This document shows positions 2,093-64,000 of a stretch of DNA of 64,000 nucleotides, one piece after another. The notes beneath the pieces are model-generated. The model worked only from the letters and a program-made list of their open reading frames with translations. It did not search any database and had not been told where the DNA came from. This DNA is from Polyangia bacterium (GTDB taxonomy: Bacteria > Myxococcota_A > Polyangia > Nannocystales > Nannocystaceae), in assembly GCA_030429545.1 (NCBI GenBank), contig JAUIFF010000004.1, positions 186,001 through 250,000 of the forward strand, written 5' to 3'. The first letter of the stretch is position 1. Each line of letters starts with the position of its first letter. Both the position numbers and the translations under genes were made by a program.

Positions 2093-2829
2093 AGCTCGAG
2101 GTCGGCAATGCCCTCGCGGACAGCGGCCATAAACGCCGGCCCGGGGTCGACTTTTTGGGTGCGGTAGTCCGGCTCGCGTTCCCAAAACAGCGGGTGGCCT
2201 TCCATCTGTTGATACTCGAAGTGGCCAATGACATGGGTGATGGCAAACCGCTGGGCGAGGTGGCGGACCAGGACAATGTTGGCCGCGACTTGGGCATCGG
2301 TCAGGGGAAACTCGGTATCGTTGCCAACGTTTTCAATGCCAATGGCGACATGGTTGAGGCCGATACAGTGGCGCGCCATCCAGGTTTCGGGCACCAGGCG
2401 GTAGATCGTGCCGTCGCGGTCGACCATAAAATGTGCAGATACATTGACATCGCCGGCAGCAGTGACGTTGGGGCGGCTGTTGTCGATGGTCGGCGGCTCG
2501 AAGTAGCCCCACGACTCCTCTAGCGTCCCACGACCGGTGTGATGCAGCACCACGACCTTGGGGGTGATCGCAATATCACTGGCCTGCGGGTCCTGGTGGC
2601 GTTGACGATAGGCGACGGTCAGCTGCTTGCGCCCGTCGCCAAACGTGATTGGCCGGTCGATGATCGCGATTTGCGTGGTGGTTTTCGCAGGTACTGTCGC
2701 GGGTGTGCTGGCTGGGCTGGCCGGGCTGGCCGGACTGTCCGTGGCCGACGGGGCTGTGGGAGCTGGGGTTGTTCGGCACGCGGGCAGGAGCAGGCAGGAG
2801 GCGGCGACGAGCCGAACGGCGACGGGCAT
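2068..2829 (-). CDS. lipoprotein N-acetylmuramoyl-L-alanine amidase (amidase_2 type)
   Basis: 253-residue lipoprotein: lipobox LLLPAC (Cys18), a Pro/Ala/Ser linker, then an amidase_2/PGRP-like domain from about residue 90. The zinc-site pattern is visible: VVVLHHTG (H96/H97), a later GHFEYQQMEGHP segment and a final K-x-D-P-G (TQKVDPGPAF). The family cuts the amide bond between muramic acid and L-alanine in peptidoglycan. A conserved HFMVDRDGTIYRL strand and an H-x-x-x-x-N-x-x-A-I-G-I-E-N segment support the fold. The anchor suggests action in the periplasm, probably from the outer membrane. It sits among two other cell-wall-type hydrolases, which suggests a peptidoglycan theme, but the genes are not co-directional. 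Confidence 0.8.
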   Translation of the reverse strand: MPVAVRLVAASCLLLPACRTTPAPTAPSATDSPASPASPASTPATVPAKTTTQIAIIDRPITFGDGRKQLTVAYRQRHQDPQASDIAITPKVVVLHHTGRGTLEESWGYFEPPTIDNSRPNVTAAGDVNVSAHFMVDRDGTIYRLVPETWMARHCIGLNHVAIGIENVGNDTEFPLTDAQVAANIVLVRHLAQRFAITHVIGHFEYQQMEGHPLFWEREPDYRTQKVDPGPAFMAAVREGIADLELQGPPGSP

Positions 2830-2928
2830 GGACCGACGCTACCGCGAAGCCCGGCCGCTGCCAAGTGTACGGATGGGCACCGGTTATTTGTGTCTGCAAG
2901 GATCGGCCGGGGCAGTGACAGTGCGGGC

Positions 2929-4275
2929 CTACTGTTGGGGCTCGAGCCCGGCAATCACGGCGTTGGCAAGCGCCGGGCGAACGTCGCGAATCCGGGTGTT
3001 TTTGCGGGTTGGGTGGACCCGATTGGTCAGCAAAATGACAAACAACTTGCGCGTTGGGTCGATCCACAACGAGGTGCCGGTAAAGCCCGTGTGGCCAAAC
3101 GACTGGTGTGAGAGGTTGCCAGCCGACGAACCCGTGCGGCTGGGCGTGTCCCAACCGTAGGCGCGCCCTGAGCCGGGAATGCCTGCCGGTTTGGTAAACG
3201 CCTCGACGGTTTGGGGCGCGACCAATTGTCGGGTGCCCAGGGTGCCGCGGCCGAGCATCATTTGGGCAAACTGGGCGAGGTCGCCGGCGGTCGCAAACAC
3301 CCCGGCATGGGGTGCCACCCCACCCATTGCATATGCATTTTCATCGTGGACCTCACCGCGCAGCACCCGGCCGCGCCACGGGTCGTTTTCGGTTGGGGCA
3401 ATTTGTCCGTGGAGGTCGGCGGGCGGACGGTAGCTCGTGTCGCTCATTGCCAGGGGCGCGAAGATTCGTTTTTGTGCAAATACATCGAGATCCTGGCCGG
3501 CCACGCGCTCGATGATCGCTCCCAACAAAATGATGCCGAGGTCTGAATAAAGCGACTTGCTGCCGGGGCGGTAAACCAGGTCCATGGCCTCGATGTGGGC
3601 GACATAGGCGGCCTTGCCCGTGAGCTGTTCATAAAGTGGGGCCCACCAGTCGATACCCGAGCTGTGGCTCAGCAGGTGGCCGACGGTCACCTCGTGTTTG
3701 TGCTTGCCGACAAATCCCGGGAGGTGGTCGACCACGCGGTCGCTCAGCGACAGCTTGCCCTCGTCGATCAGGAGCATCGCCGCGGTGGTGGTGACGACGA
3801 CCTTGGTCAGGCTCGCCAGGTCATAGATTGTATGTGCATCGACGCTGGCGGCATCTTTGGCATAGCTCAGGTGGCCGTAGCCCTTGAGGTGTACAAGCGC
3901 TCCCCCGCGACCGATCGCCACCACTGCTCCGGGAAATGCCCGACGCGTGATCGCCTTGGTGAGCAGCGCATCGACGGCCCCCATCGCCCCGGGCCGAAAC
4001 CCGGCAGACTCGGGGGAGCGGCGGGGCAGGACAGCTGCCGGCTGAAGCAGGTGGCCATCGGCGTGGTCAGGCTTGGGTGGCGTGTTGCTGCTCGCCACGG
4101 CCTTCACGCTTGCCGTTTGGGTATCGGCGTGGTCAGGCCCGGGTGGCGTGTTGCGGCTCGCCGCAGCTTTTACGCTGGCTGTTTGGTCGACACCCGACGC
4201 ACTCGGGGGCCGGTCGGTGGTTGGGCCACACCCGAGCAGTAGGGCGCAAAGCAGTCCGCGAGGGTGTCGGGCCAT
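2929..4275 (-). CDS. lipoprotein serine hydrolase, class C beta-lactamase/esterase family
   Basis: 448 residues starting at the ATG that gives a lipoprotein signal (LLCALLLGC). The catalytic domain starts near residue 95. S155-L-T-K158 is the nucleophile motif, YSD is the Tyr motif (YSDLGIILLG), and HTG (FGHTGFTGTSLW) replaces KTG, as in many family S12 esterases and peptidases. The linker holds a 22-residue duplication (residues 31-52 and 53-74 both read like QTASVKA...PDHAD), matching a roughly 66-bp tandem duplication near 4058-4190. Three TGYANNTRCA sites fall in this gene (3328, 3475, 3829), the last reading GCA-CAT-ACA. Substrate cannot be named; a D-aminopeptidase or esterase role is as likely as a beta-lactamase. 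Confidence 0.8.
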   Translation of the reverse strand: MARHPRGLLCALLLGCGPTTDRPPSASGVDQTASVKAAASRNTPPGPDHADTQTASVKAVASSNTPPKPDHADGHLLQPAAVLPRRSPESAGFRPGAMGAVDALLTKAITRRAFPGAVVAIGRGGALVHLKGYGHLSYAKDAASVDAHTIYDLASLTKVVVTTTAAMLLIDEGKLSLSDRVVDHLPGFVGKHKHEVTVGHLLSHSSGIDWWAPLYEQLTGKAAYVAHIEAMDLVYRPGSKSLYSDLGIILLGAIIERVAGQDLDVFAQKRIFAPLAMSDTSYRPPADLHGQIAPTENDPWRGRVLRGEVHDENAYAMGGVAPHAGVFATAGDLAQFAQMMLGRGTLGTRQLVAPQTVEAFTKPAGIPGSGRAYGWDTPSRTGSSAGNLSHQSFGHTGFTGTSLWIDPTRKLFVILLTNRVHPTRKNTRIRDVRPALANAVIAGLEPQQ

Positions 4276-5832: not shown

Positions 5833-7740
5833 GTGACGCATTCGCCACTCGACCTCCCGGGCGTCGCCGTCGGGTTTGCCCTGCTAGCTGGCGGGCTTTC
5901 CCAGGTGTTGGCCCATCACCTCAAGGTGCCGGGCATCGTTTTGTTGTTGCTCGCGGGTGTGCTTTTAGGGCCCGATGTCGCCGATGTTGTTCGCCCGGCG
6001 ACGCTCGCCGATGGCCTGCACCTGTTGGTCGGCTTTGCGGTGGCCGTGATCCTGTTTGAGGGCGGTCTCAACCTCGACCTCAAACGCCTGCGCCGGTCGA
6101 GTCGCGCGATTCGTTACTTGGTCACGCGCGGTGCCGTGATCACGGCGGTGGCCGCCACGGTGTTGGCCCGGTTCACCATGGATTTTTCGTGGTCGGTCGC
6201 GGCCCTGTTCGGCTGTTTGGTCATCGTCACCGGCCCGACGGTGATAAGCCCGTTGATGCGCCGGTTGGCGGTCGAGCCCAACACGGCTTCGCTGCTCGAA
6301 GGCGAGGGGGTGTTGATCGACCCGATCGGGGCCCTGGTGGCCGTGGTTGCCCTCAAGTTTGTGTTGTCGCCCACGCTCGACACCGGGTTTGAAGGCCTGC
6401 TCGATCTTTCCCTCGGGCTCGGAGCTGGCGGCCTCATTGGTGTGCTGTTTGGCGTGGGGCTCGGGTTGGTGTTGCGTCACAAACATCTAATTCCCGAGGG
6501 GATGCACAACATCGTCACCCTGGCCAGTGTGATCGCCCTGTTTCAGGGGTCGAACGCGGTGGTGCACGAAAGTGGACTCGCGGCGGTTACGTTTGCCGGG
6601 ATCGCGCTGCGTGGCATGCACACGCCCCATCTCGAAGACCTCATCGAGTTCAAGGAGCAGCTGACCACCCTGCTGATCGGCATGCTGTTTGTGCTGTTGG
6701 CCGCCGACGTACGGCTCGCCGATGTCTATGGCCTGGGCATGGGCGGGGTGTGGGCGGTCGTCGGCATGATGTTGGTGGTCCGCCCGCTCAACGTATTTTT
6801 GGGCACCCTGGGCGCGGGGCTGCGGTTTCGCCAAAAGTTGTTTTTGTCGTGGATTGGCCCCCGCGGGATTGTCTCGGCCGCGGTGGCCTCGTTGGTCGCA
6901 GTCGAGATGAACCGCACCGGCCTCGAAGGTGGCACCGAGCTGCGGGCCCTGGTTTTCTTGGTGATTGCCGCCACGGTGATCGTCGCCGGCCTCACCGGCG
7001 GTCGGGTGGCGCGGGCCCTCGGCTTGGCTCGGCCGCCGGCCAACGGATGGCTGGTTTTGGGGGCCCATGCCCTGGGTCGTTGTATTGCCAATATTCTCCG
7101 CGAGCGCGGCGAAGATGTGATCCTGCTCGACCGCAATGCCGGTGATTGCCGCCGTGCCGAAGAGCAGGGTTTTCGCGTGGTCTACGGCAACGCCCTGCAC
7201 CCGCGCACCCTGTTGCGGGCCGACTTGGAGCAGCGCGCCGGGGCGATGGCACTCACGCGCAACGATGAGGTCAACCTGCTGTTTATCAACCGCTGCCAAG
7301 AAACCCTGCGTCGCGGCAAGCCGGCGCTGTGGATGGCCCACACCGGAGCGACTGAGGGGATCACGCAAAAGATGGTTAATCAGGCCGGCGCGGATGTCCT
7401 CGCGGGCGCCGGGATTGATGCTGCGATGTGGTGCCACTGGCTCGATCGCGGCCACGCGCGGGTTGTTCGGTTTGTCGTCCACGAGGCCAGCACCGGGATC
7501 GAAATCGCCAGCAAAACACTGTTGCCGTTGCTCGTTGTCCGGGACGGACTGCACCGTCTGGTCGGTACGCGCACCTCCTATATGGTTGGTGACGAAGTCG
7601 TATTCTTAATGCAGATACAACGTGAGGCCGAGATCAGGGTTCAGCTACGCGAATCCGGGTTTCGACCCCTGGTTGTCGAGCAAGCACCCGGGGTGGCGAT
7701 ACATGCCGAGGCCACGGCTGTTGTCGCCCCAACAATTTAG
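5833..7740 (+). CDS. CPA-type cation/proton antiporter with TrkA-N domain
   Basis: 635 residues. Residues 1-400 form a hydrophobic cation/proton antiporter domain with about 12 membrane segments; LFEGGLNLDL, GVLIDPIGAL and SWIGPRGIVSAA are typical of NhaP/CPA1-like exchangers. From about residue 405 a TrkA-N (RCK) nucleotide-binding domain follows (WLVLGAHALGRCIANIL, ILLDRN, VVYGNA), then a TrkA-C-like region. The family swaps Na+ or K+ for H+ across the inner membrane, gated by the cytosolic domain. The first Gly of the dinucleotide motif is weakened (LGAHALG), so ligand binding is uncertain. A GTG at 5833 was chosen because the frame upstream is not protein-like. The stop overlaps the convergent kinase gene by 4 bp. 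Confidence 0.85.
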   Translation: MTHSPLDLPGVAVGFALLAGGLSQVLAHHLKVPGIVLLLLAGVLLGPDVADVVRPATLADGLHLLVGFAVAVILFEGGLNLDLKRLRRSSRAIRYLVTRGAVITAVAATVLARFTMDFSWSVAALFGCLVIVTGPTVISPLMRRLAVEPNTASLLEGEGVLIDPIGALVAVVALKFVLSPTLDTGFEGLLDLSLGLGAGGLIGVLFGVGLGLVLRHKHLIPEGMHNIVTLASVIALFQGSNAVVHESGLAAVTFAGIALRGMHTPHLEDLIEFKEQLTTLLIGMLFVLLAADVRLADVYGLGMGGVWAVVGMMLVVRPLNVFLGTLGAGLRFRQKLFLSWIGPRGIVSAAVASLVAVEMNRTGLEGGTELRALVFLVIAATVIVAGLTGGRVARALGLARPPANGWLVLGAHALGRCIANILRERGEDVILLDRNAGDCRRAEEQGFRVVYGNALHPRTLLRADLEQRAGAMALTRNDEVNLLFINRCQETLRRGKPALWMAHTGATEGITQKMVNQAGADVLAGAGIDAAMWCHWLDRGHARVVRFVVHEASTGIEIASKTLLPLLVVRDGLHRLVGTRTSYMVGDEVVFLMQIQREAEIRVQLRESGFRPLVVEQAPGVAIHAEATAVVAPTI

Positions 7741-9227
7741 GTTGTGTGCGCCCGGCTTCGCAACGAGGCCACGGCCGCGATGACCAGGGCGCACAGCGAG
7801 CTGCAACCAAACGAGGCCCCACTCCAGGCCGGCGACAGGGCGGAGATCAGTGCCCCAATATAATATGCACATGCAATAAGTGCGACCCAGCGTCCAACCC
7901 AAAACGTCGCCAGGGCGGCGGCGGTACCCAGCACAACGTGGTCGCTGATCAGGGTTGTGGTTGGCGGGATGTCGGCCAAAAACCCGGTGAGACGGTGAAA
8001 GATCAGGGCGAAGATCGCCACGGTCGCCCAGCCGACGAGCCTGGTGGTGAGTTCACTTTTGGCGATCGCCCGCCGTGACAGCCAAAAAAATCCGAGTAGC
8101 GGAATCGCGGTGATCAGCACGACCATCAGTGAGTCTCGCGCGTTGGCCTGCTCGACATCCCCGGCGACCTTGTCGACCATCGGCCAGGTGATCAGCAGGA
8201 CTAGGAGAATCGCGAGCGCGAGGGCAAACCGGGTGCGCCAGCCGGTTGCGGGGTCTTGCGACGGGTCGTGGCTGAGTACGGCGAGCAGCTGATCGAGGGT
8301 GGCAAACCGTGCGTGTGGCTCGCGCGCAAGGCCCCGGACCAGGGCGGCATGGATCGCCGCAGGGACCGGGCTATCGACCGGCACAGCTGCCGGCTGTTGC
8401 TCGATGCTGTCGAGCAGTGACATCATATTTGTACGTACAAACGGAAACTTGCCGTAAAGCGCCTCGTAGAGGGCGGCACAAAATGCAAACTGGTCGCCGG
8501 CCGGACCGACGTCTTCGCCCAGGATTTGTTCGGGGGCCATGTAGGCAGGGGTCCCGACCAACGCCCCGGCGTAGGTCGCTTCGGCGTCGAGAATGAGGTT
8601 GCTATCGGTCGATGCCTCGGGGTTGTGGCCAGGTGTCGTCGGTGGCCCGCCACCCAAGCGGGCGAGGCCAAAGTCGATCACACGCGGTCGTCCATCGCCA
8701 CCAACGAGGACGTTTTGCGCCTTAAAGTCGCGGTGGATAAGCCCGCTGCGATGGGCCGCACACAGACCGTGACCTGCCCGAATATACATGTCGACAATCT
8801 CGCGCCACGAGCCGGCCTGGGTCTGCCAGGCAAACAGGGTGGGGCCGTCGACGTGTTCCATCGCCACATAGATCTGGGCCGCGTATTCACCCACCTCAAA
8901 CACCGGGATGACATTGGGATGGGACAGCCTCGCCATCGCCTGGGCCTCGCGCAGCATCCGGGCGCGGGTCTTGTCGTCGGTGGCAACTTCCTCGCGCAGG
9001 ACCTTGATCGCAACCTTGCGGTCGAGCTGGCGGTCGAACGCCGCATAGACACTGCCCATGCCGCCCTCGCCGATCTTGTCGATCAGGGCAAAGCGGCCGA
9101 GGCTCGGCCTGGGGCGGTCGTGGTCGACGCGGAAGGTCTCGCTATCGATCCGGGCGCCAAGGGTTTCGGCGGTGGCAAAAGGAGCGTGAAGGTCGGCCTC
9201 CTGGTGGGTGACATCGGGGGCCTTCAC
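7737..9227 (-). CDS. Ser/Thr protein kinase with multi-pass membrane tail
   Basis: 496 residues. The kinase domain covers about 45-320: Gly loop IGEGGMGSVY, ATP lysine in VAIKVL (K75), catalytic HRDFKAQN, metal-binding DFGLARLG and a TPAYMAPEQ activation-segment end. All key residues are present, so it should be active. The C-terminal 165 residues hold five or six membrane segments and no PASTA, TPR or other sensor domain. This gives a Pkn-type kinase held at the inner membrane by a polytopic tail, common in myxobacteria. A HRDFKAQN loop (instead of HRDLKPEN) is a known myxobacterial variation. Target and signal are unknown. TGYANNTRCA sites fall in the tail and kinase regions (7866, 8430). 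Confidence 0.9.
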   Translation of the reverse strand: MKAPDVTHQEADLHAPFATAETLGARIDSETFRVDHDRPRPSLGRFALIDKIGEGGMGSVYAAFDRQLDRKVAIKVLREEVATDDKTRARMLREAQAMARLSHPNVIPVFEVGEYAAQIYVAMEHVDGPTLFAWQTQAGSWREIVDMYIRAGHGLCAAHRSGLIHRDFKAQNVLVGGDGRPRVIDFGLARLGGGPPTTPGHNPEASTDSNLILDAEATYAGALVGTPAYMAPEQILGEDVGPAGDQFAFCAALYEALYGKFPFVRTNMMSLLDSIEQQPAAVPVDSPVPAAIHAALVRGLAREPHARFATLDQLLAVLSHDPSQDPATGWRTRFALALAILLVLLITWPMVDKVAGDVEQANARDSLMVVLITAIPLLGFFWLSRRAIAKSELTTRLVGWATVAIFALIFHRLTGFLADIPPTTTLISDHVVLGTAAALATFWVGRWVALIACAYYIGALISALSPAWSGASFGCSSLCALVIAAVASLRSRAHTT

Positions 9228-10838: not shown

Positions 10839-10945
10839 GACAATCTCCTTATTGAATTTTGTAGGTACATCGACAGCTTCGTTGATTGACCATCAAAATT
10901 CTACAGCATAGAACCTTACCAGGGTTCGCTCGTCAAGCAATTTTT

Positions 10946-11017
10946 GTATGCACATACTCTTTTTTGGGAAGAGTATGAGACTGCGACGCTCGTTGCACAT
11001 ACGTTGTTAGACGTATG
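10946..11017. promoter_or_regulatory. cluster of CATAC/GTATG inverted repeats
   Basis: Three nested palindromes share one half-site. GTATG-CA-CATAC spans 10946-10957. CATACTCTT (10953-10961) pairs with AAGAGTATG (10969-10977) across a 7-base loop. CATACGT (10998-11004) pairs with ACGTATG (11011-11017) across a 6-base loop. The DNA is AT-rich and lies 110-180 bp upstream of the Cys-rich protein gene at 10838, so a repressor or activator binding region is the simplest reading. The middle hairpin could also act as a terminator for the minus-strand gene on the right. Confidence 0.5.
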
Positions 11018-14364: not shown

Positions 14365-15747
14365 ATGTACAACCTGTTCGTGTCCGCCCGCCACCACTTT
14401 CGCCGTGCCGATGCGTCCAACCCCCGCTCGGTCGCCGTGCAAATCCTGGTCGCGATCGAGCGTACCCGCGGATTTTCAAACCGCATCCTCGATCGCGAAC
14501 TCGGACGCAATGCCCGGCTGTCCCACCGCGACCGCGGGTTGTGTACGGCGTTGGTCTATGGCGTGTTGCGCAACCAGGCCCGGCTCGACCATGTCATCGA
14601 CCACTTCGCCCACAAGCCCAAGGGGCTGCGCGGCCCGGTGCGGTGGGCCCTGCGGATCGGTGCGTTTGAACTGTTGGAGCTCGGGCATCCGATTCACGCC
14701 GTCGCCTCGGAGGTCGACAAACTCGTCAAAGCTGCGGGCAAGGGTGCATTGGGGCGGACATGCCATGCCTTGATCCGGGCGATCGAACGCGACGCGGCCG
14801 GGTTTGAGGCCAGCACCAAAAAGCCACTCGATGTACTCGAGCGGCGCTATTCGGTGCCGCGGTGGTTGGCCGGTCGGTGGCTGCGGGAATTGGGGCCAAG
14901 CCAGGCGATTGAGCGGGCGATTGCCATCTCGGGGCCGTGCCCGGTCGACATCCGTGTCGACTGCTCGCGGGTCGACGCGGCCACGGTGGCCCAGGCGTTG
15001 CGGACAGCCGGGTTTGAACTCGAACAACTCCCCGGCCAACCCCAGGCAATACGGATCCGGCGAGGTGGTGCGGTCGCCCAGCACCCAATGCATGTACAAG
15101 GATTATGTTCGGTGCAGGCGATAGGTTCCCAGCAGGCGGTGTTAGCCCTGGCGCCGCAGCCGGGTGAGCGGGTGCTCGATGCCTGTGCCGGGATTGGGGT
15201 GAAGACCTTGCACCTCGCCGAGGTCATGCAACGTCGCGGCACCCTGGTTGCGACCGAGCCATCCCCCCGGATTTCGCAGCTGCAGGCCACGGCGATCCGC
15301 GGGCAGTTGCACGGGCGCGAGCTCGACCTGCGGCTTGTGCAGGCAGCGATGGACACCCCCGAACCGGTCCCCGAGGTCGACGACAACGGGGCGTTTGATG
15401 CGGTCTTGGTCGACGCGCCCTGTACGGGCCTGGGTAACTTGGGCCGCCACCCGGAGTTGCGCTGGACCAGTCGCTACGAGGACATCGCCAGCTGTGCCGA
15501 GCTTCAGGCGAGGATCCTGCGGCGATGCTGGCAACGGGTCAAGCCGGGCGGGCGCCTGGTCTATGCAGTTTGTAGTTTGGAGCCGGAGGAAGGGCGGCAA
15601 CTGATCGCCGAATTTATTGCAAGTACAAGCGATGCCGAGCTGGCGAGTGAGCAGACGTGGACACCCGAGAGCCACCAAACCGACGGGTTTTATTTGGCGG
15701 CGCTCGGGCGCTCGGGCGGCAAAATAAGTGCCAGTGCGCACAGTTAG
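14365..15747 (+). CDS. rsmB: 16S rRNA (cytosine-C5) methyltransferase RsmB
   Basis: 460 residues. The N-terminal NusB-like helical domain (RSVAVQILVAIERTRGFSNR...) is followed by a SAM-dependent methyltransferase: motif I VLDACAGIGVKTLHLAE, motif IV VDAPCTGLGNLGRHPELRW with the release cysteine, and motif VI YAVCSLEPEEG with the catalytic cysteine. The NusB-like domain separates RsmB from RsmF. It makes m5C967 in 16S rRNA (E. coli numbering). ATG at 14365 was chosen although the frame is open from 14218; the upstream stretch is Arg-rich and unlike protein. Motif I has VCAGIG-like DACAGIG instead of DxCAAPGGK, an unusual divergence. Two TGYANNTRCA sites lie inside (15089 as M-H-V-Q, 15618 as A-S-T). 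Stop overlaps the convergent lipoprotein gene by 4 bp. Confidence 0.85.
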   Translation: MYNLFVSARHHFRRADASNPRSVAVQILVAIERTRGFSNRILDRELGRNARLSHRDRGLCTALVYGVLRNQARLDHVIDHFAHKPKGLRGPVRWALRIGAFELLELGHPIHAVASEVDKLVKAAGKGALGRTCHALIRAIERDAAGFEASTKKPLDVLERRYSVPRWLAGRWLRELGPSQAIERAIAISGPCPVDIRVDCSRVDAATVAQALRTAGFELEQLPGQPQAIRIRRGGAVAQHPMHVQGLCSVQAIGSQQAVLALAPQPGERVLDACAGIGVKTLHLAEVMQRRGTLVATEPSPRISQLQATAIRGQLHGRELDLRLVQAAMDTPEPVPEVDDNGAFDAVLVDAPCTGLGNLGRHPELRWTSRYEDIASCAELQARILRRCWQRVKPGGRLVYAVCSLEPEEGRQLIAEFIASTSDAELASEQTWTPESHQTDGFYLAALGRSGGKISASAHS

Positions 15748-16400: not shown

Positions 16401-17900
<1,500 letters not shown>

Positions 17901-18032: not shown

Positions 18033-18758
18033 TTATTTGCGGAGGAAGCGAGCGATCGGAGCGGCGAAGATCGCGGGCACGACCAGCAACGAACCGGCGA
18101 GCAGCGGGAAGATCGAACCGGCGACCACCAGCGAGCCGGCGGGATCGAGGAACAGGTACCCGACGCCAGGTTGGCCAAGCAGGCCGAGCCCACTGATCAC
18201 AGCGCCCACACCAGCAGCACCCAGGGCCGCCACACTCCAGGTGCGACCGCGGATCATGCCGACAAAGCCGGCGATGGCGAGACCCAGCACGCCCCATGCA
18301 AATGCATCGGCTTCGGGGCCCAGGGCCCAAATGATGAGAATCGGCAGGCTAAAGCCGGCGGAGCGAACGGCCCGGCGCATGAGTGCGATCGAGTCTTCCT
18401 GGAAGTTCCAGCGCTCGGCAGTCGCTTCGGAGTGCTCGTAGTGAGACGCCATGCCCTCGCCAGCCAAAAACACGGCGATGATGAGGTGCGGGATGCCGAA
18501 GATCAGAATCGATGGGTCGGGGCCAATCTGCAACAGCCCGAGCAGCAGGATGATGGCGCCGAAGTTGCCCAGCCCCATGGCAAACCACCGCGACCAAAAC
18601 CATTCGGCCGCGATCCCCATAAACGCGATCCCGTAACAGGCCGCGAGGGCGAGACAGAATTGGAACATCTCCTCGGGGCCCAAAACGGCGGTGAGGAGGT
18701 ATTGCCAGAAGAACAGACTGAGGAAGAGCAGAGCAGTTGCGCGACGGATACCGATCAT
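18033..18758 (-). CDS. polytopic membrane protein, unknown
   Basis: 241 residues starting at MIGIRRATALL (the ATG at 18776 adds six residues). Hydropathy by eye gives six to seven membrane spans, with one charged loop (MASHYEHSEATAERWNFQEDSIALMRRAV, about residues 105-135) between two halves. No transporter signature was found. A terminator at 17986-18011 ends the unit, so it is probably expressed alone. One TGYANNTRCA site (18297, TGCAAATGCA) reads as D-A-F-A-W on the minus strand. Function cannot be inferred from neighbours. Confidence 0.6.
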   Translation of the reverse strand: MIGIRRATALLFLSLFFWQYLLTAVLGPEEMFQFCLALAACYGIAFMGIAAEWFWSRWFAMGLGNFGAIILLLGLLQIGPDPSILIFGIPHLIIAVFLAGEGMASHYEHSEATAERWNFQEDSIALMRRAVRSAGFSLPILIIWALGPEADAFAWGVLGLAIAGFVGMIRGRTWSVAALGAAGVGAVISGLGLLGQPGVGYLFLDPAGSLVVAGSIFPLLAGSLLVVPAIFAAPIARFLRK

Positions 18759-44519: not shown

Positions 44520-44661
44520 TCGGTTGGCCGACCATCTGGTGAGGAAGGTCGGCCTGTTTTAGCGCGTGCTGTGGTGTGCACGAAATTGCCGGTGTCCAAA
44601 ATCGCGTTTTACCCGCGGTGGTAAGCCTCCCGCTTGCATCTGCAAACCGAGGTCACGGGCA

Positions 44662-49767: not shown

Positions 49768-50807
49768 GACTCACTCTCTTCGTCGGCAGCACCCTCGGCA
49801 GCGGCTAGGGCAGCGTCGCCCGTGTTGGCCTTGAGGTTGAGGTCCGGGTTGTTGAGAACGTCGGGGTTTTGCGGAGCTGGCGGGGCGAATGCCTGCGAGG
49901 AAATCTCGACATACATCCCGGGCTTGAGCAGTCCGTCCTTGTTGGACAGGTGGGCGACGATCTCGACGGTACGCGTGATCGGGTCGACCATTGGCTGGAT
50001 CCGGGCGATGGTGGCCGTGCGCGAGATGTTGAGCGCGGGGAACTCAGCCGTGATTTCGCGGCCGACTTCGAGGGTTCGCAGCAGCATCTCGGGCAACTTG
50101 ACCCGCAGCTCCAGGGTTGTTTGATCCTGCAACAAAATCACTGGGGTCGGCGGCATCATGGTGACGGTCTCGCCAACCTGCTTAAACCGGCGGACGATCA
50201 GCCCGTCGAACGGGGCGATTGCAGCGGTATCGGCCCGGTTGCGACGGGCCATCGAGACCGCGGCCTTGGCCTGGGCAACTCCGGCTTCGGCCTGGTCATA
50301 GGCACTTTTGGCCTGGTCGTAGTTGGCACTCGAGATCGAGCCACGGTCCTTGAGTTTTTGCTGACGGTCGAGCGCGCGCTTGGCCTGGTCGCGGGCGATG
50401 ACCGCCCCGCTGAGCGAGGCCTGGGCCTGCTTGATACCGATGCTCTGGGCACCGCCAGCCAGGCGAAACAGGGTTGTGCCCTTTTTCACCGTATCGCCCT
50501 CCTCGACCAGGATGGCACTGATGGTGCCGGAGGCCTTGGGCCCGATGGTCGCCTCGCGAATCGGTGTAACTGCACCGACATAGCGCTCGAGCAGGTTTTG
50601 TTCACCCCCGGCGAGCGGCGAGCGACGCGACGAGTTTTCGACCTCTTTTTGGGCCTTGGCGACCGGGTCAAAGGCCTCCGAGTCCTGGGCTGGTGGCAGT
50701 CCGGACTTGCCAGGTTCGTTGCTGGTACAACCGCCTAGGCTCGCTGCTAGGAGCGCGAGGCCGAGGCCGGTGGAAAGAATGCTTTGCATACGCATGGCGG
50801 ATTTCAT
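49764..50807 (-). CDS. RND periplasmic adaptor lipoprotein (HlyD/AcrA-like)
   Basis: 347 residues. Signal and lipobox (LLAASLGGC) anchor it to a membrane. ATIGPKASGTISAILVEEGD is the lipoyl-like half motif. A helical hairpin (about 115-195, ASLSGAVIARDQAKRALDRQ), a beta-barrel (IAPFDGLIVRRFKQVGETV) and an Asn/Leu-rich C-terminus follow. It bridges the pump and TolC-like channel. Its start overlaps the stop of the regulator gene by ATGA, and its stop overlaps the pump start, so regulator, adaptor and pump are translated as a coupled message. A TGYANNTRCA site (50565) reads V-G-A-V-T-P. Confidence 0.9.
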   Translation of the reverse strand: MKSAMRMQSILSTGLGLALLAASLGGCTSNEPGKSGLPPAQDSEAFDPVAKAQKEVENSSRRSPLAGGEQNLLERYVGAVTPIREATIGPKASGTISAILVEEGDTVKKGTTLFRLAGGAQSIGIKQAQASLSGAVIARDQAKRALDRQQKLKDRGSISSANYDQAKSAYDQAEAGVAQAKAAVSMARRNRADTAAIAPFDGLIVRRFKQVGETVTMMPPTPVILLQDQTTLELRVKLPEMLLRTLEVGREITAEFPALNISRTATIARIQPMVDPITRTVEIVAHLSNKDGLLKPGMYVEISSQAFAPPAPQNPDVLNNPDLNLKANTGDAALAAAEGAADEESES

Positions 50808-53424: not shown

Positions 53425-55017
53425 CTAGCCGGCGTAGGAGTCGTCCTGTTCGATCTTGCTGAGCACCCAGTCAAACTCGCCGGCGGTGAGGTGGGCCCCG
53501 CAGTATTCGCACGAGCCGGCCATGCCGATATTGAGGGGGGCACCACAGTTGGGACAGTTGTGGTCCAGGCGCGGTGCACCGCGAACTTTGGCCGCGCGGA
53601 TCAACGTCCAATACTCGGTGTAGGCGCGATTGTTGGTGCGGCTGCCCGAGACTTTGAGCCCGTCGGATTGGCGCACGGTGTAGTCGCGACCGGTCGCGTA
53701 GATCCGTAGGGTCACGGCATCGAAGTGGCGGTCGCGGATGGTTTTAACGACCTCGGTCCGCTTGACGTGCATGCCTTCGAGGACGTTGCGCAGGCCTTGG
53801 TTGCGGTAGGCGTCGATCCAGTACTGCAAATAGTTGTAGAGGCCATCGGAAACAAACGGGCGCACGGCGGTGAGGTCGAGCGCGGTCCAGCCGGCATTGA
53901 GCTCGGTGTAGATCATTCGCAGGCGGGCGGCCAGGCTTTCGCGCGTCACCTCTGGGTCGTCGCGGTGGAGCTTGGCAAACCGTTGCTCATACATCGGTTG
54001 GAACACGGTCGCCTTGTCGTTGCCGTATTCCGCGACGTTTTGGGTGAGGACCGGGGGGCGTTGTTCCTGGTGGTCGAGGCCGATCGACGACACGCTCCAG
54101 TCGAAGGTGCCACCCTCGACCGCCTGGTTGCAGTGGGCACAGCGATTTTGGTCGGAGGCGACATAGGGCGCACCACAGCTTGGGCAGTGCAGGCTGCGGG
54201 CGCCGGTGGGTGCCTCGGTTTGCACGGTGGCATCGCGGATCAGCAGCCAGCGCTCACGCAAATAGTAGGTGTGTAAATCGTCGGGCGTCCCGGCGGTGAG
54301 GTTGGCCTCGAACTTGAGCGTGACCTGAACGCGGTTGGGTTGGCCATCCCGCATGCGCGCGGTGTCGGGGATCACCACACTGTGTATATGCATGGCGCCG
54401 ATCACCACGTTGGACACCGGGACGTCTCTTGGCTGTCGGCGTTTGAGTTGTTTGCGCGCCCGCGGGCTGAGGTAGGGGGCGAGCGCTGCCATGGCTGCGG
54501 GATTGGCCCGGGCCTGGTGAGCTTGGGCGAACAGGCGGTAGGCAAAGTCCTCAAACAGCACCTGCGAAAATTCCGGGTCGAGTTTTCGCAGCCCGTTGAG
54601 ATTGGACACCCGGCTGACCGAACCCGCGGCAAACAGCTCCATGTCCTCGGGGGTCGCCGCCATGGCGCTGTCCCACGACTCTTTGTCGGTCTTGGCCTTG
54701 TTGAAGAACACAAACAGCATGATGCCGACCGTCAGCGGAATGCCGATGATCGGGTGTTCGAGGCATAGCCAAATCAAAAACACGATGGCATCGCCGTCAC
54801 CACCACCGCCACTGCTGCTGTAGGAACTGCTCGAGCCGCCACTGTAGGACGAACCACCGCCCGAGTACGAATGCCCGCCGCCGGGGCGCAGTGTTTCGGC
54901 AAGAACTTCGGGACAGGTAGATGCGTAGACCGCGACCACGACGGCAGCGGTAAAAAGCCGCGGGTAGCGGACCAGGGCCCAAAACACGGGGGAGCTGAGA
55001 TAGCTTGGGTTGTTCAC
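53425..55017 (-). CDS. Tim44-like membrane protein with two zinc ribbons
   Basis: 530 residues. A signal-like N-terminus (about 20-40) and a Gly/Ser/Tyr-rich stretch (GGGHSYSGGGSSYSGGSSSS) precede a membrane span (FLIWLCLEHPIIGIPLTVGIMLFVFF). Two Tim44-like (NTF2-like) halves follow (about 125-280 and 330-500), each ending in a zinc ribbon: CPSCGAPYVASDQNRCAHC and CPNCGAPLNIGMAGSCEYC. The halves look like an internal duplication. Tim44-like proteins often tether to membranes. Its ATG overlaps the stop of the TPM gene (ATGA), so the two are translated together. A TGYANNTRCA site (54383) codes for M-H-I-H. Confidence 0.72.
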   Translation of the reverse strand: MNNPSYLSSPVFWALVRYPRLFTAAVVVAVYASTCPEVLAETLRPGGGHSYSGGGSSYSGGSSSSYSSSGGGGDGDAIVFLIWLCLEHPIIGIPLTVGIMLFVFFNKAKTDKESWDSAMAATPEDMELFAAGSVSRVSNLNGLRKLDPEFSQVLFEDFAYRLFAQAHQARANPAAMAALAPYLSPRARKQLKRRQPRDVPVSNVVIGAMHIHSVVIPDTARMRDGQPNRVQVTLKFEANLTAGTPDDLHTYYLRERWLLIRDATVQTEAPTGARSLHCPSCGAPYVASDQNRCAHCNQAVEGGTFDWSVSSIGLDHQEQRPPVLTQNVAEYGNDKATVFQPMYEQRFAKLHRDDPEVTRESLAARLRMIYTELNAGWTALDLTAVRPFVSDGLYNYLQYWIDAYRNQGLRNVLEGMHVKRTEVVKTIRDRHFDAVTLRIYATGRDYTVRQSDGLKVSGSRTNNRAYTEYWTLIRAAKVRGAPRLDHNCPNCGAPLNIGMAGSCEYCGAHLTAGEFDWVLSKIEQDDSYAG

Positions 55018-55652
55018 GCCACCGCCTCCCGGTCATCGATGTCGTCGGGAAGTTCGTTGACGTCGTCGGCTGCCCGCGGGAGTTTTTCGCCGAGGATGGG
55101 GCCCAACGTTTTCAGTGCATCTGCAATTTTGACGACATTGGAGCCGGCCAGCATCTCGACACGCAGCGTGCGAACGGCTGCCTGCCAAGCCGGGTTGTCC
55201 GCGGTTGCCTGGGCCACCGCCGCATCGCACACGATTTCGATGGTGCGTTCAAAAATCGAGATGTACACCAGCATCCCGGTGCGTCCCTGGGTCAGGCGCA
55301 CACCCTTGGCAAAAAACGTCGACTGGGCTGCCTCGCGGACCCTCGCCCGGCGCCCGAACTCGGTGGTGAACAACCGCTGGCACGGCGGGAAGTTGTGGCA
55401 GACGATGCCGACAATCAGGCCGGCGAGTGCCGGGTCGATCAAAAACCAGTGCAGGGCAAACGGAGCCTCGGCATACAGCAGCACCGCGGACATCAACAGC
55501 GAGGCGATGAATGCCGCGGTGACGGTCGTATGGCTGTAGTTGCCGGAGCGTGGTCGCACCGAGATCACGACCTCGGCACTGGAATGCGATTCGATCGATT
55601 GAATCGCCGCCTTTAGGGCCTGCTTGCCCCCTTCGTCTAGAAATCGCGCCAC
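55014..55652 (-). CDS. TPM/TLP18.3-like domain membrane protein
   Basis: 212 residues from a GTG at 55652 (RFLDEGGKQALKAAIQSIE). The first part (SIESHSSAEVVISVRPRSG) recalls the TPM-domain start. Two spans follow (AAFIASLLMSAVLLYAEA and LIDPALAGLIVGIVCH). The second half (TGMLVYISIFERTIEIVCDAA) matches the TPM end pattern, that is, a TPM fold interrupted by two spans. Function in bacteria is unclear (TPM proteins may be repair or phosphatase-like). Overlap with the Tim44-like gene suggests a working pair. A TGYANNTRCA site (55116) reads I-A-D-A-L. Confidence 0.65.
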   Translation of the reverse strand: MARFLDEGGKQALKAAIQSIESHSSAEVVISVRPRSGNYSHTTVTAAFIASLLMSAVLLYAEAPFALHWFLIDPALAGLIVGIVCHNFPPCQRLFTTEFGRRARVREAAQSTFFAKGVRLTQGRTGMLVYISIFERTIEIVCDAAVAQATADNPAWQAAVRTLRVEMLAGSNVVKIADALKTLGPILGEKLPRAADDVNELPDDIDDREAVA

Positions 55653-57578: not shown

Positions 57579-60500
57579 TCAACCAGATGGTTTCTGAGTT
57601 GCGCGAAGAGGGTGCTGTTCGTGCGCAGGGTGGATTTACCATCGACAGCGAGAAGGCCCGCGACAAGATGCGGCAGTTTCAGCTGGCCGTGCCCCAGGAG
57701 TATGTTTTGTTGCTGGTACAAGCAGCGGTCCTCAAGGGCGCCAGCCAGATCGCGTTTGATATCGACGCCGACGATGTGCGGATGAACTTTGACGGCGAGC
57801 CGTTTACCCGCGACGACCTCGAAAACATCTACGGAGCGATGTTCGTCGATCGCACCGACCGGCAGATCCACGCCCGCCAGGAGCTGGCGATGGCCCTCAA
57901 CGCGGCCATGGCCCTCAACCCGCGTTACATTCGCCTGCTCAGTGGCAACCGCGAAAGCCGGGTGTTTTTGCAGATACAACCGGGCAAGGACGATCTACTC
58001 AAGCAAGCCGAACCCAATGTCGAGGGCACCTGGATCCACATCAAGCAACGCTTTCGTCCAGGGCTCGTGCTCGAGTTTGTCCGCAACCTCCGGGGCAAGG
58101 TCGCCGAGGAGGTTCACCTGCGCGATCGCTGTCGCTACAGCGGGGTGGCAATTACCCTCGACGGCAAGCAAATTTCGCAGGGCACCGAGCTCGAAGGGGT
58201 GGTCGCCACGGTACGGGTGGCGGGCGAGGGTGTTGCCGGCATGGCCGGGTTTGAACCGCCGACCCGCGACGACGACGATGCCCCGCGGGTGCCGGCGGTG
58301 ATCGAAATTCTGTGTAACGGGGTGTCGCTCACCCGCCACGAAGACCCCAACCTGCCGCGATTTTTTCATGCCCTGGTCGACGGCTCACACCTGCTCAAGG
58401 ACGTGTCGCAACGCGATGTCGTGCGCAACGACGCCTACGACCAGCTGATGGATGCGGTGCGCGATGCCGCCGATCGGGCGTTTGTGGTGCTGGTCAAGGC
58501 GGCCAGCGAGGGCGAGGTTCCCAAGTGGGTGCGCGGTGTGGTCATCAATTGGTTGTATGAGCATGCAAATCAGGTGCGTGAGCAGACAGAGCCCGTCAAG
58601 CAGGACACACCGCTCGCGGCTGCGCTGAGTGTCCCGCTGTGGCCATTGGTTGGCGGCTCCACGGCCGCGACCGCCGAGCTGCTGGCGGCCAGCGATATCC
58701 ACTACACCGACAAGGACTTTGAGGGCTATTTGCCCGAGGACTTAAGCCAGGTGGTGTTGCTCGACAACACCAACATCGACGACCTGTTTCACGAGTTGTT
58801 TGGCAGCGCGGCCAAGTCGGTGACGCGGCGGATCGAACGGGCCTATCGCCATGAGCTCAACCGCCGCAAGTGGCGTGAACGGGTGCATCCGCCCCACCTC
58901 GGCGAGGGGATCTTTATCGCCACCGCGGTGATCGTCGACGACGGTGTCGGCGGCCAGATCGGTCTGCGCGAGATGACCACCGACCTCGCCGAAGTGCGGA
59001 TGGTCAAGGACGGTTGTGTGTTGTTCGAGGCCTATCCCCGCGGGCCGGTGGCCGGGCTTTTGGGGGTGGTCGTTGCCGACTTCGAGCCCACCAGCGCCTA
59101 CGACAACGCCCGTCATAATCGTGCATATGCACGGGCATTGATGGCGTTTTTGTGTGCGGTCGAACGCCTGATGGCGACCGCCGCCCAAACCGAGTTGGCC
59201 GCCTCGGGCCGCTCGGCGGTGTTGCGGCGGACCATCCTCGATTACCTCGCAGCCGTGACAGAGGAGGAGTATGCCCTCGATATCTTCGAGGAGTTTGGAT
59301 TTTCGCGGACCCACGCCCGGCGCCAGCTCAGCAGTGTCGACATCGATGTTTGCCTGCCCAAGTGGAACCTCGACGGGGATTCGCCACACCCGTTGACCAC
59401 GGTGCCGCTGTTTCGCACCCACGCCGGCAAGACCGTCAGCCTGCAACACATTCACGCACTTGCCAGCAAAGACTCGCGGATGCCGTGGTTGCCCACGGTG
59501 GCCGACAGGTCGGGCCTTTCGGGGACCAGCGAGTTGCCGAGCGAGCTACTGCTGCTCGACCCCGTCGAGCGAACCGTTTTGCTGCGCTTGATCGGCCACG
59601 AACGGTTGATGGACTTCTCGCCGGTGTTGCGTACCTTGCAGCACCAGGCCCGGTTTTTACGCAAGCCACGATTGCCCCTGAGCCTGCGCCACGAAGCCGA
59701 GGTCTCGGTCGAGTTTCGGTGGGAGAGTTGCAAGGGGGTCATTGGTCTTCGCCGGGCCGATGTCAATCTCTCGAACGCCGAGTTTCGAGCCGAGATTTCG
59801 GTGCGAAAATTTCACCGCGGCCTGGCCGAACTCAACCCGCGGACGCTGTTGCCGGGCATTGTCGCGGTGGTCAACGACGACGAGGTCGAGACCAATGAGG
59901 AGTGGACCGACCTCGCCTCGCGCCAGCCGAAATGTCTCGACGTGGTGTTGGGCGAAGTCCCGGGGTTGCTCAAGGCCGCCCTCGAGCGCCGGTTTCATCG
60001 CCGTGAACTCCACGCCTATTTGTTTGTCGCGCTGATGGCCATGCTCCCCCAGGAGCTATTCCCCACGCTACTCAAGTTGCATGAGCAACAGGATTTGGCG
60101 GCCTATCAGCAACTCATCGAGCTGACCAAAACCTACTCGCTTTCGCAGGTGGCCAAGGCCATTGCCCATGTCGAAAAGCGCGGTCGCGAGTTGACCCCGG
60201 CCACGGTCGAGGCCTCGCTCAAAAATCGCAAGGTTCGTGCCCGTGGCGGCGGCCCGCTCGACCACCTGCGCGTGGGGATGATGGTGTATCTGCAACAGCT
60301 GATCCAGTTGCCGATGTTGTTGACGACCGCCGGTAACCAGCTGTGCCTCAACGACCTGTTGGCAGCCTACCGCGAGCAGGGGGTGATTTACTACATTCGC
60401 CGTGAACTGCCCGGCAATGTCGAATACGACGGTGATGAGCGCTTGGTGCTCAACCTCGACTCGCACCAACGCCGGCGCTTGCAAGCGGTTTTCGGGGCTA

Positions 60501-62383
60501 ACAAGCTGGTCAACTCCCTCGATTTTATTGAGTCCTGGCAGCGCAAGCGCAGGTTTAATCTCAAGCGCGAGGTTTCGGCGCTGACCGTGTCTGAGCGCGA
60601 TGCCGTGGTGATGATCGACATCAATACCGGGGGATTTACCGGCCAACTCGGGCTGCGGCGCTGGAACTTTCGCGAGCCCGAGGGGGCGCGCATTAAGGTT
60701 TGTTGTACACGCAGGGAAGTTTGCAGCCTCGATCTGTCACTCGACATCGCCCTGGTCGGGATTCTCAATCACGACAAGCTGCAGACCAACGACACGTTTA
60801 CCGGGGTGACACGCAAGCAGGCCGATACGATTCGCAAGTTGTGCAAGGATTCGGTCGAGGAGCTGGTCGCCGCGCTTGCGAGGCGCTGGAGTGCGTTGTC
60901 GATTTCGGGCGACCACACCGTGACCGACCTCGCTCGCCACGTACTCGCTAAGCGTGCCCGCCGGGTCAATGGCGACCGCCGGCGACTGATGCGAGCCACC
61001 ACCCGCAAGCTCGCCGAGTTGCCGATTTTTCGCGACATTGAGGGCTCACAACACACGCTGGCCGAGCTCGTCGACAGCTACAAACAACACGGGGCGATCT
61101 ACTACGTGGCCTCGCAGTGGCGGGCGGAGGTACCCGACGAGCATCCGGTGATCGACGCCCGCGAGGCTGTGTTGGCCGACCTGTCGCAGTTGTTTACGGT
61201 GGTCACCGACTACGAAGGTGTCTATCGCGAGCAGCAACAAACCCGGCGGCGACGCGAGAACTCGCCCAAGATGCTGCGCAAGGCACCCGACCACGCGGTG
61301 GCCAGTGTGCGGATCAAAGAAAAGGGGCTCGACGGCTGGATTTGGCTACCCTCGCGGGTTGTTGGCGACGCGGTTATCGGGTTTGGCGATAGCGAGTTTG
61401 TGGTCGAAAAGCGCACCGGTGAGGGGCACTACCCGTGTCGTGGTGCGATCGTTGTTGACGAGTCGCGGATTCGTGGCTCGTGGGAGTTTGTCCAGCTCGC
61501 GCGCAAGCAGGAGATCGCGGTGAAGAAGGCGATCAATCGCCTGTATCGCGAGGTTATGGCGGGGTACGAGCGGGCCCACGAAGCCAAGGGCGCGGGGACC
61601 TTGGAGGCCCGGATACGCGATGCCTTTGGCGAGCATGTATCTGCACAGATCGTTGCCGGGTATCTGCGCAAGGCGCTGCTCAACCTGTTTCGTGCGGGGG
61701 CCGATCCCACGCGTTCGCGCGAGCGAACGTTGTACCGACGCATGCGCAACGCGCCGCTTTTGTCCCTTCGAAACGGACGGATGATCTCACTCGAGGTTGC
61801 CCTTGAAGAGCGCCCGGCGGATCTCAGCCACTTGCAGCTGTGGCCACCCACACTCATCCGCGAACAGATCGAGGCGCAGCCCGAGCCCGAGCCCGAACCC
61901 GAGCCCGAGCCCGAGCCCGAGCCAGCGAAGGCCCAGCCCGAGCCCGAAAAGCCGAAGGCCAAGCCGAAGCGCCGGCGTAAAAAGAAGGCTAAACACAAGC
62001 CCAAGCCACAGCCCAAGCCCGAGCCGCCGCCGCCACCACCCGAGCCCGAGCAGTTGTTGCTCGAGGCCGTGCGCAACGAGTTGCGAGTGCTGCGACGCTC
62101 CGATAAGGCGCTGCTGAGTAATCGCCAGCTCGAGCGTCTCGACTACGGGTGTACGACCGAGGAGGTCATCGCCTACGACGATGGCGGCCAGGTGACGATC
62201 AACACCCTCCACCCGGTGGTGGCTGCCGCAGTTGAAAAACGGGCCGCCGATCCGCTGCTCGTGAGCATGGTAACTTCGGCTGTATATACATTCTTAAACC
62301 TGATCCACGAGCAGATCGAAGATCGCCACGAATTGGTGTTTCACGAGCTCCACGCGAGCCACGTGTTGTCGACGTTTGGCTGA
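57560..62383 (+). CDS. giant 1607-residue protein with degenerate GHKL N-terminus and four internal repeats
   Basis: 1607 residues. Residues 1-230 look like a decayed GHKL fold: [20 protein letters not shown] sits where ELIQNALDAG should be, with Asn lost to Ala, and MNFDGEPF replaces D-x-G-x-G. Four homologous modules follow (about 450-537, 707-812, 1003-1107, 1244-1337), each with a G..G.IGLR-like start and a [14 protein letters not shown]-like strand ([14 protein letters not shown] in the third). Residues 1439-1497 are Pro/Glu then Lys/Pro-rich. The end (1500-1607) is a helical domain. I know no characterised homologue. The 19-bp overlap with the GHKL gene and the shared fold argue for a joint machine. 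Confidence 0.72.
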
Positions 62384-62443
62384 CCGCGGCAGCGACCCTC
62401 GCCGGCCAGCAACCTGACGCGACGCCGGGGCCTGTGCCGTGGT

Positions 62444-64000
62444 ATGAGCCTGTTCGTGACGCTCAACTCTGCCCAACTCGCTGCGGTCCAACACCGCGGA
62501 GCCCCGCTGTTGGTGCTCGCCGGCGCGGGCACGGGAAAGACCCGGGTGATCACCCATCGGGTCGCCTCGCTGCTCGACGATGGGGTCCCGCCCTGGCGCG
62601 TGTTGGCGGTCACGTTTACCAACAAGGCGGCCAGCGAGATGCGTGCCCGGATCGCCGAGTTGTGTGGCGACGACCACGACATCAAGGGGTTGTGGGTCGG
62701 CACATTTCACTCAATTTGTGCCCGGATCCTCCGGCGATTTGGCGAGCCGGTGGGCCTCAGCCCGAACTTCTCGATCTACGACTCGGCCGACCAAAAATCG
62801 CTGATGAAGCAGACGATGAAGGAGCTGCGCATCAGCGACAAGACCTATCGTCCGCAGCTGTTTTTGGGGTACCTCGACAAACTCAAAAACGCCGGTCGGC
62901 ACGTCAGCGACAAGGCGCTTTTCCGGCTCGGGGTTGAGGAGCCGGTGCGGTCGACTGCGCTGAATGTGCTCAAACGCTACCAACGCAAGCTGCGAGCGGC
63001 CGATGCCGCGGATTTTGGCGACCTGCTGGTGTTGGCGGTTGAGTTGCTCGAGCAGGCCAGGGCCCAGCCCGCACCAGAACCTGTATATACACCGCCACCA
63101 CCACCGGCTCCGGGTCAAACCGGGAGCTTGTTTGCCGACTTGCCCAACCCCTCGCGCCAGCAAACCGCGCCCTCGGGCCGCCTGCGGTACCGCAAAAAAG
63201 CACCGACCGACGGTTCGCAACTCGCCGACCAGGACCCGGTTGTCAAGCTTACGCGGCGTTTCAAACAGGTGCTCGTCGACGAGTATCAAGATACCAACCC
63301 GGTCCAGGCCAGGCTTGTGCGGGCGCTTTCGGGGGAGGCCGAAGTCTGTGTGGTCGGCGATGACGACCAGGCGATTTACGGCTGGCGCGGGGCCGATGTG
63401 ACCCAGATCCTCGGGTTTCCCGAGCGCCATCCCGGCAGTCGAATTATCCGCCTCGAGCAAAACTACCGCAGTACCTCGCATATTCTCGAGTGCGCCCACG
63501 AAATCATTCGCCGCAACCGTGGCCGCCACGGCAAAAAGTTGTGGAGCGAACTCGGCGATGGCCAACCGGTACGGGTGCTCACCGTCGAGGATGAGCGCGA
63601 GGAGGCCCGGTTTATCGCCAACGATATCATCGATTATCTCGAGCAGGGTTCGCCCGAGGACATTGCGATTTTCTACCGAACCCACGCCCAGTCGCGCGCG
63701 ATCGAAGAGGCCCTACGCCTGGCAGGCCTGCGTTACAACGTGTTTGGCGGGTTGCGGTTTTTTGACCGCAAGGAGATCAAGGACCTCGTCGCCTACCTGC
63801 GGCTGTTGGTCAACCGTGCCAGCGATGTCGACTTTTTGCGGGTGGTCAACACCCCGCCGCGCAAGCTCGGCAAGACCTCGATTGGGCGGTTGAGTGAATA
63901 TGCAAGCGCGCGCGACATGTCGCTTTGGCAAGCCGTTGCACATGCACAAGAAGCGGGGATCGGCACGGCGGCACGGCGGCGGCTCGAGGCGTTTGTCACC
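62444..64000 (+). CDS. UvrD/PcrA-type DNA helicase, truncated by window end
   Basis: 519 residues are visible and the frame runs off the right edge. Superfamily 1A motifs are clear: Q/Walker A NSAQLAAVQHRGAPLLVLAG and GAGTGKTRVI, motif Ia TFTNKAASEMR, motif Ib GTFHSICARILRRFG, Walker B VDEYQDTNPVQ, motif III GDDDQAIYGWRGA, motif IV EQNYRST. It unwinds DNA 3' to 5' in repair and replication restart. An unusual Pro-rich insert of about 65 residues (ARAQPAPEPVYTPPPPPAPG then SLFADLPNPSRQQ...) falls before Walker B. The ATG at 62444 is 61 bp after the giant gene's stop. TGYANNTRCA sites lie at 63082 (in the insert) and 63935. Confidence 0.93.
   Translation, partial: MSLFVTLNSAQLAAVQHRGAPLLVLAGAGTGKTRVITHRVASLLDDGVPPWRVLAVTFTNKAASEMRARIAELCGDDHDIKGLWVGTFHSICARILRRFGEPVGLSPNFSIYDSADQKSLMKQTMKELRISDKTYRPQLFLGYLDKLKNAGRHVSDKALFRLGVEEPVRSTALNVLKRYQRKLRAADAADFGDLLVLAVELLEQARAQPAPEPVYTPPPPPAPGQTGSLFADLPNPSRQQTAPSGRLRYRKKAPTDGSQLADQDPVVKLTRRFKQVLVDEYQDTNPVQARLVRALSGEAEVCVVGDDDQAIYGWRGADVTQILGFPERHPGSRIIRLEQNYRSTSHILECAHEIIRRNRGRHGKKLWSELGDGQPVRVLTVEDEREEARFIANDIIDYLEQGSPEDIAIFYRTHAQSRAIEEALRLAGLRYNVFGGLRFFDRKEIKDLVAYLRLLVNRASDVDFLRVVNTPPRKLGKTSIGRLSEYASARDMSLWQAVAHAQEAGIGTAARRRLEAFVT

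Follow-up and report, generated by a model that had tools for sequence, protein, structure and literature searches.

A highly iterated palindromic word in one Polyangia genome: a probable mark of self DNA

What would cause a short palindrome to recur throughout a bacterial genome, inside genes as well as between them? The question is raised by a 64,000-nucleotide stretch of a Polyangia bacterium (Nannocystaceae; contig JAUIFF010000004.1, positions 186,001 to 250,000), hereafter the window, in which the ten-base word TGYANNTRCA is found in coding and intergenic DNA alike. Only a handful of lineages are known to have words iterated across the whole genome, as uptake signal sequences (USS), DNA uptake sequences (DUS) and the highly iterated palindrome HIP1, and there is still no agreement on why they arise. 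The word described here is strongly over-represented across the genome, and it is probably a mark by which something in this bacterium recognises its own DNA.

TGYANNTRCA is present in the window 36 times, whereas dinucleotide shuffles predict 1.97 copies and at most six were seen in any of 100 shuffles. The original prediction had given 35 copies against one or two expected, so its enrichment stands although its exact count does not. Across the whole genome (G000; 8.6 Mb in 39 contigs, about 95% complete, the window being part of contig 18, or C18), the word occurs 4,915 times and the reversed pattern 412 times, an excess well beyond a Markov-level count. The word is symmetric, with inverted half-sites around an N2 centre, and this geometry is specific. 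In 437 kb of the genome, spacers of 0, 1, 2, 3 and 4 bases gave 29, 4, 227, 7 and 7 copies respectively, so that enrichment is confined to spacer 2 and is not shared by the control spacers. When all four-base inverted half-sites were combined with spacers of 0 to 8, the top z scores belonged to TGTA (28.5) and TGCA (24.3), both at spacer 2.

The ten-base word, first proposed as the motif itself, is a real core but only the centre of a longer one. An iterated weight matrix extends it to a graded palindrome of about 24 bp, AAWTNNTTGYAN|NTRCAANNAWTT, with 84 extended sites in the window. Here and below, fine statistics come from about 0.8 Mb of sampled genome and a further 0.4 Mb held out. Weight-matrix scores are bimodal, with 758 coding sites above 11 bits versus 52 in synonymous shuffles. 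Extended sites occur at 1.34 per kb in 823 kb of the genome and at 1.30 per kb in the held-out 400 kb, which was unused in training, compared with 0.046 per kb in G001, a relative of the same genus; the sampled density of about 1.3 per kb extrapolates to about 11,000 sites genome-wide. T0, G1, C8 and A9 are near-invariant in these sites, A3 gives way to another base in roughly one site in four, and T is preferred over C at Y2 after allowing for expectation. Around strict copies, position −1 is almost never C and position −4 almost never G, −4 to −7 are AT-rich, and conservation ends past about 8 bp. Coding copies (349) and intergenic copies (99) share this flank profile, which is therefore not a codon effect.

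Within genes, the word lies mostly at silent positions. Coding copies number 353, whereas shuffling synonymous codons gene by gene predicts 35. A single frame, xxT GYA NNT RCA, accounts for 76% of them (269 against 3.2 expected, an 84-fold enrichment), while the remaining two frames hold 71 against 24.7 and 13 against 7.4 expected. The frames are consequently not random, contrary to the mixture first described. In the favoured frame, the fixed T and A of the half-sites (T0, A3, T6 and A9) are all third codon positions, and roughly one GTA or GCA codon in ten belongs to such a site. Genes aligned to the same-genus relative covered 26 sites, none with an indel. At these sites, codon identity is 3% versus a background of 33%, yet residue identity is 58% versus 61%. 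A typical site reads AAT GTA TTT ACA here and AAC GTG TTC ACC in the relative, both encoding Asn-Val-Phe-Thr. Because residues are kept, codons are changed and indels are absent, the sites evidently arose mainly by silent substitution rather than by insertion of an element. The silent-frame enrichment, the flanks shared by coding and intergenic copies, and the site-specific synonymous substitutions together strongly support the proposal, already made in the original prediction, that DNA rather than protein is the target of selection or of a copying process. A comparison of paralogues within the genome, itself underpowered, found 7 of 37 sites shared.

These results leave next to no probability that the word is due to chance, to codon usage or to the spread of a repeat element. 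Beyond its presence in coding DNA, nothing favours such an origin; the codon-shuffle, spacer and reversed-word controls contradict chance and codon usage, and a repeat element is contradicted by sites that lack indels and by flanks without conserved sequence past about 8 bp. Specifically, a dispersed repeat or miniature inverted-repeat transposable element (MITE) was rejected since the flank logo is flat beyond that distance, leaving no homology outside the core. An RNA hairpin was likewise considered. Its loop would be two bases, and the Y2/R7 combinations of coding copies (109 CG, 120 CA, 68 TG and 56 TA) show no covariation between half-sites, so that a hairpin is unsupported. The two half-sites vary independently, which instead points to recognition of the word as double-stranded DNA, with a dimer the simplest reader.

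The strict copies of the window, nine of its extended sites that the strict word misses, and one gene discussed below are listed by window position. Sites are strandless, and the number that closes each site's entry, before any remark, is its extended score.

2434..2443, strict core TGCAGATACA, 20.3
3328..3337, strict core TGCATATGCA, 17.6
3475..3484, strict core TGCAAATACA, 17.0
3829..3838, strict core TGTATGTGCA, 16.3
7610..7619, strict core TGCAGATACA, 16.2
7866..7875, strict core TGCACATGCA, 19.7
8430..8439, strict core TGTACGTACA, 16.1
10860..10869, strict core TGTAGGTACA, 16.5; outside called genes
15089..15098, strict core TGCATGTACA, 18.3
15618..15627, strict core TGCAAGTACA, 18.2
16465..16474, strict core TGTAGGTACA, 13.7
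18297..18306, strict core TGCAAATGCA, 12.6
22586..22595, strict core TGTACCTGCA, 19.5
24003..24012, strict core TGTATGTACA, 17.6
26860..26869, strict core TGCAGCTGCA, 11.7
30478..30487, strict core TGTAAATGCA, 14.9; just upstream of the comEC open reading frame (ORF)
35552..35561, strict core TGCACATGCA, 15.1; outside called genes
37124..37133, strict core TGCATGTACA, 19.3; in the ArsA-like gene
37870..37879, strict core TGCATGTACA, 17.6; outside called genes
38619..38628, strict core TGCAGATGCA, 11.9
40432..40441, strict core TGCATTTACA, 17.1; in ggt
41182..41191, strict core TGCATATGCA, 15.0; in ggt
43729..43738, strict core TGTAGATGCA, 18.9; outside called genes
44332..44341, strict core TGTAGCTGCA, 17.0
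44635..44644, strict core TGCATCTGCA, 6.3; weak flanks, may be a chance copy
46402..46411, strict core TGTAGGTACA, 19.0; in the AcrB-like gene
50565..50574, strict core TGTAACTGCA, 15.4
54383..54392, strict core TGTATATGCA, 9.7; weak flanks
55116..55125, strict core TGCATCTGCA, 17.3
57969..57978, strict core TGCAGATACA, 13.9; in the 1,607-aa ORF
59122..59131, strict core TGCATATGCA, 16.3
60285..60294, strict core TGTATCTGCA, 16.3
61636..61645, strict core TGTATCTGCA, 13.5
62281..62290, strict core TGTATATACA, 14.5
63082..63091, strict core TGTATATACA, 10.5
63937..63946, strict core TGCACATGCA, 14.6
10945..10954, extended site TGTATGCACA, 18.5
17493..17502, extended site TGTAGATTCA, 17.2
19245..19254, extended site TGCTTATACA, 23.0; top score in the window
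27128..27137, extended site TGTATAAACA, 20.5
27973..27982, extended site TGCTGTTGCA, 18.1
35211..35220, extended site TGTGTATACA, 19.1
37637..37646, extended site TGCATATTCA, 19.0
42145..42154, extended site TGTTGATACA, 19.2
58554..58563, extended site TGTATGAGCA, 18.7
28481..30457, minus strand, comEC homologue, 658-aa ORF (PF03772)

Among relatives, the word appears to be peculiar to this genome. No excess was seen in the 28 other family members (the same-genus relative and 27 more), in the other 317 of the 318 genomes of the class, or in any other genome of a phylum sample of 379. The same-genus relative has 13 spacer-2 words in 394 kb. One genome of the class, G118, looked like a second carrier (126 versus 12), but it has 40% GC and its spacers of 2, 5 and 8 are equally common, which marks a composition effect. 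Although our genome and its same-genus relative are placed in one genus, they differ in GC content (61% versus 71% in sampled regions) and share only about 61% residue identity across aligned genes. The family is probably Nannocystaceae, since the nearest named counterpart of a 1,103-aa protein, at 76%, lies in a Nannocystis MAG.

The arrangement of sites along the genome offers a further clue to what the word does. Relative to expectation, the density of site pairs is 0.51 at 0–100 bp, 0.62 at 100–200 bp and 0.84 at 200–300 bp, and then approximately as expected; counts of sites in windows are underdispersed (variance/mean 0.66–0.77). At 30–150 bp, the pair ratio is 0.60 for the real motif and 1.01–1.30 for twelve permuted motifs of matched density, and it is 0.49 (z −4.7) in the held-out regions. 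This repulsion below about 300 bp suggests that one site serves a few hundred bases, and we infer that the word accumulated through a benefit that saturates within that distance. Within the general repulsion, there is a slight excess of pairs 20–21 bp apart, centre to centre, or two helical turns (nine pairs, on contig 18 and others). Extended sites occur at 1.21 per kb in coding DNA versus 1.78 per kb outside called genes, the latter including uncalled genes. They run evenly through genes and are not concentrated upstream, which leaves ordinary promoter regulation by a transcription factor unsupported.

Repulsion bears directly on two other explanations. The first is that biased sequence-specific repair or gene conversion creates a word without function. 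Genes and intergenic DNA have been entered alike, with filtering to silent positions, as such a bias would predict. However, repulsion is hard to obtain without a saturating benefit, and a word of 24 bp with some 15 bits is longer than a repair bias would be expected to specify, so we regard this explanation as doubtful. The second is that an abundant dimeric nucleoid protein, possibly a winged-helix protein of the GntR/HutC type, binds every 750 bp or so to fold or bridge the chromosome, with selection keeping coverage even. Even spacing and repulsion are consistent with this, a graded palindrome with AT flanks resembles a protein footprint, and the compact TGTA-N2-TACA geometry recalls GntR-type operators. 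Yet about 11,000 weak sites would all have to be under selection simultaneously, 28 other family members, the same-genus relative among them, manage without the word, and the sampled contigs showed no large-scale gradient in density, as far as this was tested. A role in chromosome organisation is consequently unlikely, if less so than a functionless bias.

Most sampled regions of the large contigs have a similar density, a few stretches being sparse, and some low-GC islands are almost devoid of sites. The island at C18:99–130 kb has five sites where about 40 would be usual, and carries a methylase-SNF2 helicase fusion, an M23 peptidase, a ClpP-like protease and unknown genes. GC and gene content indicate that such islands are probably foreign DNA, consistent with arrival later than, or independently of, the process that writes the word. 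The fusion in this island (C18:109864–115809, minus strand) is 1,980 aa long, and comparable very large ORFs occur on contigs C29, C5, C39 and C27, with lengths from about 1,600 to 2,250 aa. Those of the ORFs that were scanned have an Eco57I-type methylase domain joined to an SNF2/ResIII helicase; they are possible defence systems. The same island contains a tandem array at C18:125331–126828, with units of about 30 bp carrying TGCACCTGGTGTGCA (TGCA-N7-TGCA). An apparent enrichment of TGCA-N7-TGCA was rejected as mostly this one local array (C18:125.3–126.8 kb).

Could the word instead be a methylation target? An orphan N4-cytosine or N6-adenine methyltransferase might modify the palindrome at C8 or A9, its near-invariant modifiable bases, with the resulting mark, through a part in mismatch repair or strand memory, driving its accumulation. 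The word is palindromic, occurs about once per kb within genes and is sporadic, in one genome, as are the alternative HIPs of cyanobacteria (PMC4390886). Each alternative HIP goes with a matching methyltransferase (PMC4390886), and methyltransferases were examined for this reason. The genome has several without an evident restriction partner, including one at C14:116946–117872 that lacks a close relative in the family. This enzyme has an SPPY motif, and no endonuclease was recognised in its two neighbouring ORFs. Nevertheless, it is 56–61% identical to other enzymes, two of them annotated beside NotI-family endonucleases, suggesting a different, GC-rich target. Of seven N4/N6 enzymes checked, six have counterparts in relatives without the word: three of four PF01555 enzymes have relatives 60–75% identical in motif-free genomes, as do three Eco57I-type enzymes at 45–57%. 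No C5 methyltransferase was found in the genome, making a 5-methylcytosine target unlikely. An AT-rich word with flanks graded to about 7 bp would also be unusual for a methyltransferase, HIPs being short, GC-rich and sharp. These negatives, from a search of some methyltransferase classes in an incomplete assembly, weaken a role for methylation; we consider it unlikely, though the strongest competitor to uptake. The original list of candidates (a dimeric binder, a methyltransferase, an uptake or organisation signal, a HIP1-like word) survives, but its members are not equal. As a separate observation, TCGCGA is strongly avoided in 823 kb of the genome (265 observed versus 529 expected under a maximal-order Markov model), which would fit a present or past restriction system directed at that sequence, and TTCGAA is also low.

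The word shares its spacing, evenness and AT-rich flanks with the uptake sequences of Haemophilus, in which a second nearby site has a null effect, and we accordingly rank a drive of the uptake type first, followed by a HIP1-like methylation word, a nucleoid protein and a functionless bias. Haemophilus USS are spaced at about 1 kb with a relatively even distribution and AT-rich flanks, and uptake of a fragment gains nothing from another site less than 100 bp away (PMC7811141). We speculate that the word is a self-DNA site read by a dimer and spread by biased uptake and recombination; this is our leading reading, held tentatively and at rather less than even odds. A dimeric protein would recognise the word on double-stranded DNA, its TGYA half-sites strictly and its AT-rich flanks less so. 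Sibling DNA carrying a site would be preferentially captured or kept, natural uptake being the likeliest route, and would recombine into the chromosome. Variants that gain a site could then spread by molecular drive until every few hundred bases hold one, and a second site on the same incoming fragment would bring no gain, producing the repulsion below about 300 bp. Its more specific form, in which a dimeric receptor or sorting protein prefers the 24-bp word and exchange among siblings wrote the roughly 11,000 even, silent copies, is a step more tentative again.

The comEC homologue of the window is relevant to this uptake hypothesis only. ComEC is the inner-membrane channel for DNA uptake, needed in known systems but common. 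Several points weigh against uptake. ComEC is so widespread that its gene proves no competence, and no sequence-specific receptor has been identified, the receptor and other competence parts not having been searched for. Chromosome organisation, or a methylation mark acting on its neighbourhood, would likewise space the sites evenly. Further, the word is confined to one sampled genome, whereas uptake sequences run through whole families, and known uptake sequences are not palindromes (PMC1939737). The lineage provides a motif-free relative of the same genus for comparison, and clear silent placement together with a measurable range of repulsion makes drive, methylation and chromosome structure testable against one another.

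How, then, does the word compare with known systems? The operators of GntR/HutC and AraR regulators (TGTANNTACA-like) have a compact core very similar to its own, but these are single promoter sites, whereas the word occurs at thousands of sites within genes. Chi, the FtsK-orienting polar sequences (KOPS) and matS are likewise over-represented DNA words read by protein. Chi and KOPS are asymmetric and oriented, and matS is rare and regional; unlike all three, the word is symmetric, very dense and genome-wide. HIP1 and the alternative HIPs are iterated palindromes found about once per kb in coding DNA, and their alternative forms are sporadic in single genomes (PMC4390886). They are 5–8 bp long, GC-rich, sharp and matched by a methyltransferase, while the word is AT-rich, graded, about 24 bp long and built around an N2 centre, with no matched enzyme; its AT-rich, graded, 24-bp form argues against plain membership of the HIP class. 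The USS of Haemophilus influenzae and the DUS of Neisseria resemble it in their thousands of copies, about one per kb within and outside genes, and likewise have AT-rich flanks, a graded enrichment of one-off variants, a relatively even distribution and few copies in foreign DNA (see PMC7811141, PMC1939737). They are asymmetric and family-wide, whereas the word is a palindrome of one sampled myxobacterial genome, which argues against plain membership of that class as well. None of the papers on HIP and uptake words that a literature search turned up describes TGYANNTRCA in myxobacteria, and the word is apparently a fresh case, independent of the known ones, in one lineage. If the uptake reading is true, it would represent a symmetric counterpart of the uptake sequences outside Pasteurellaceae and Neisseriaceae.

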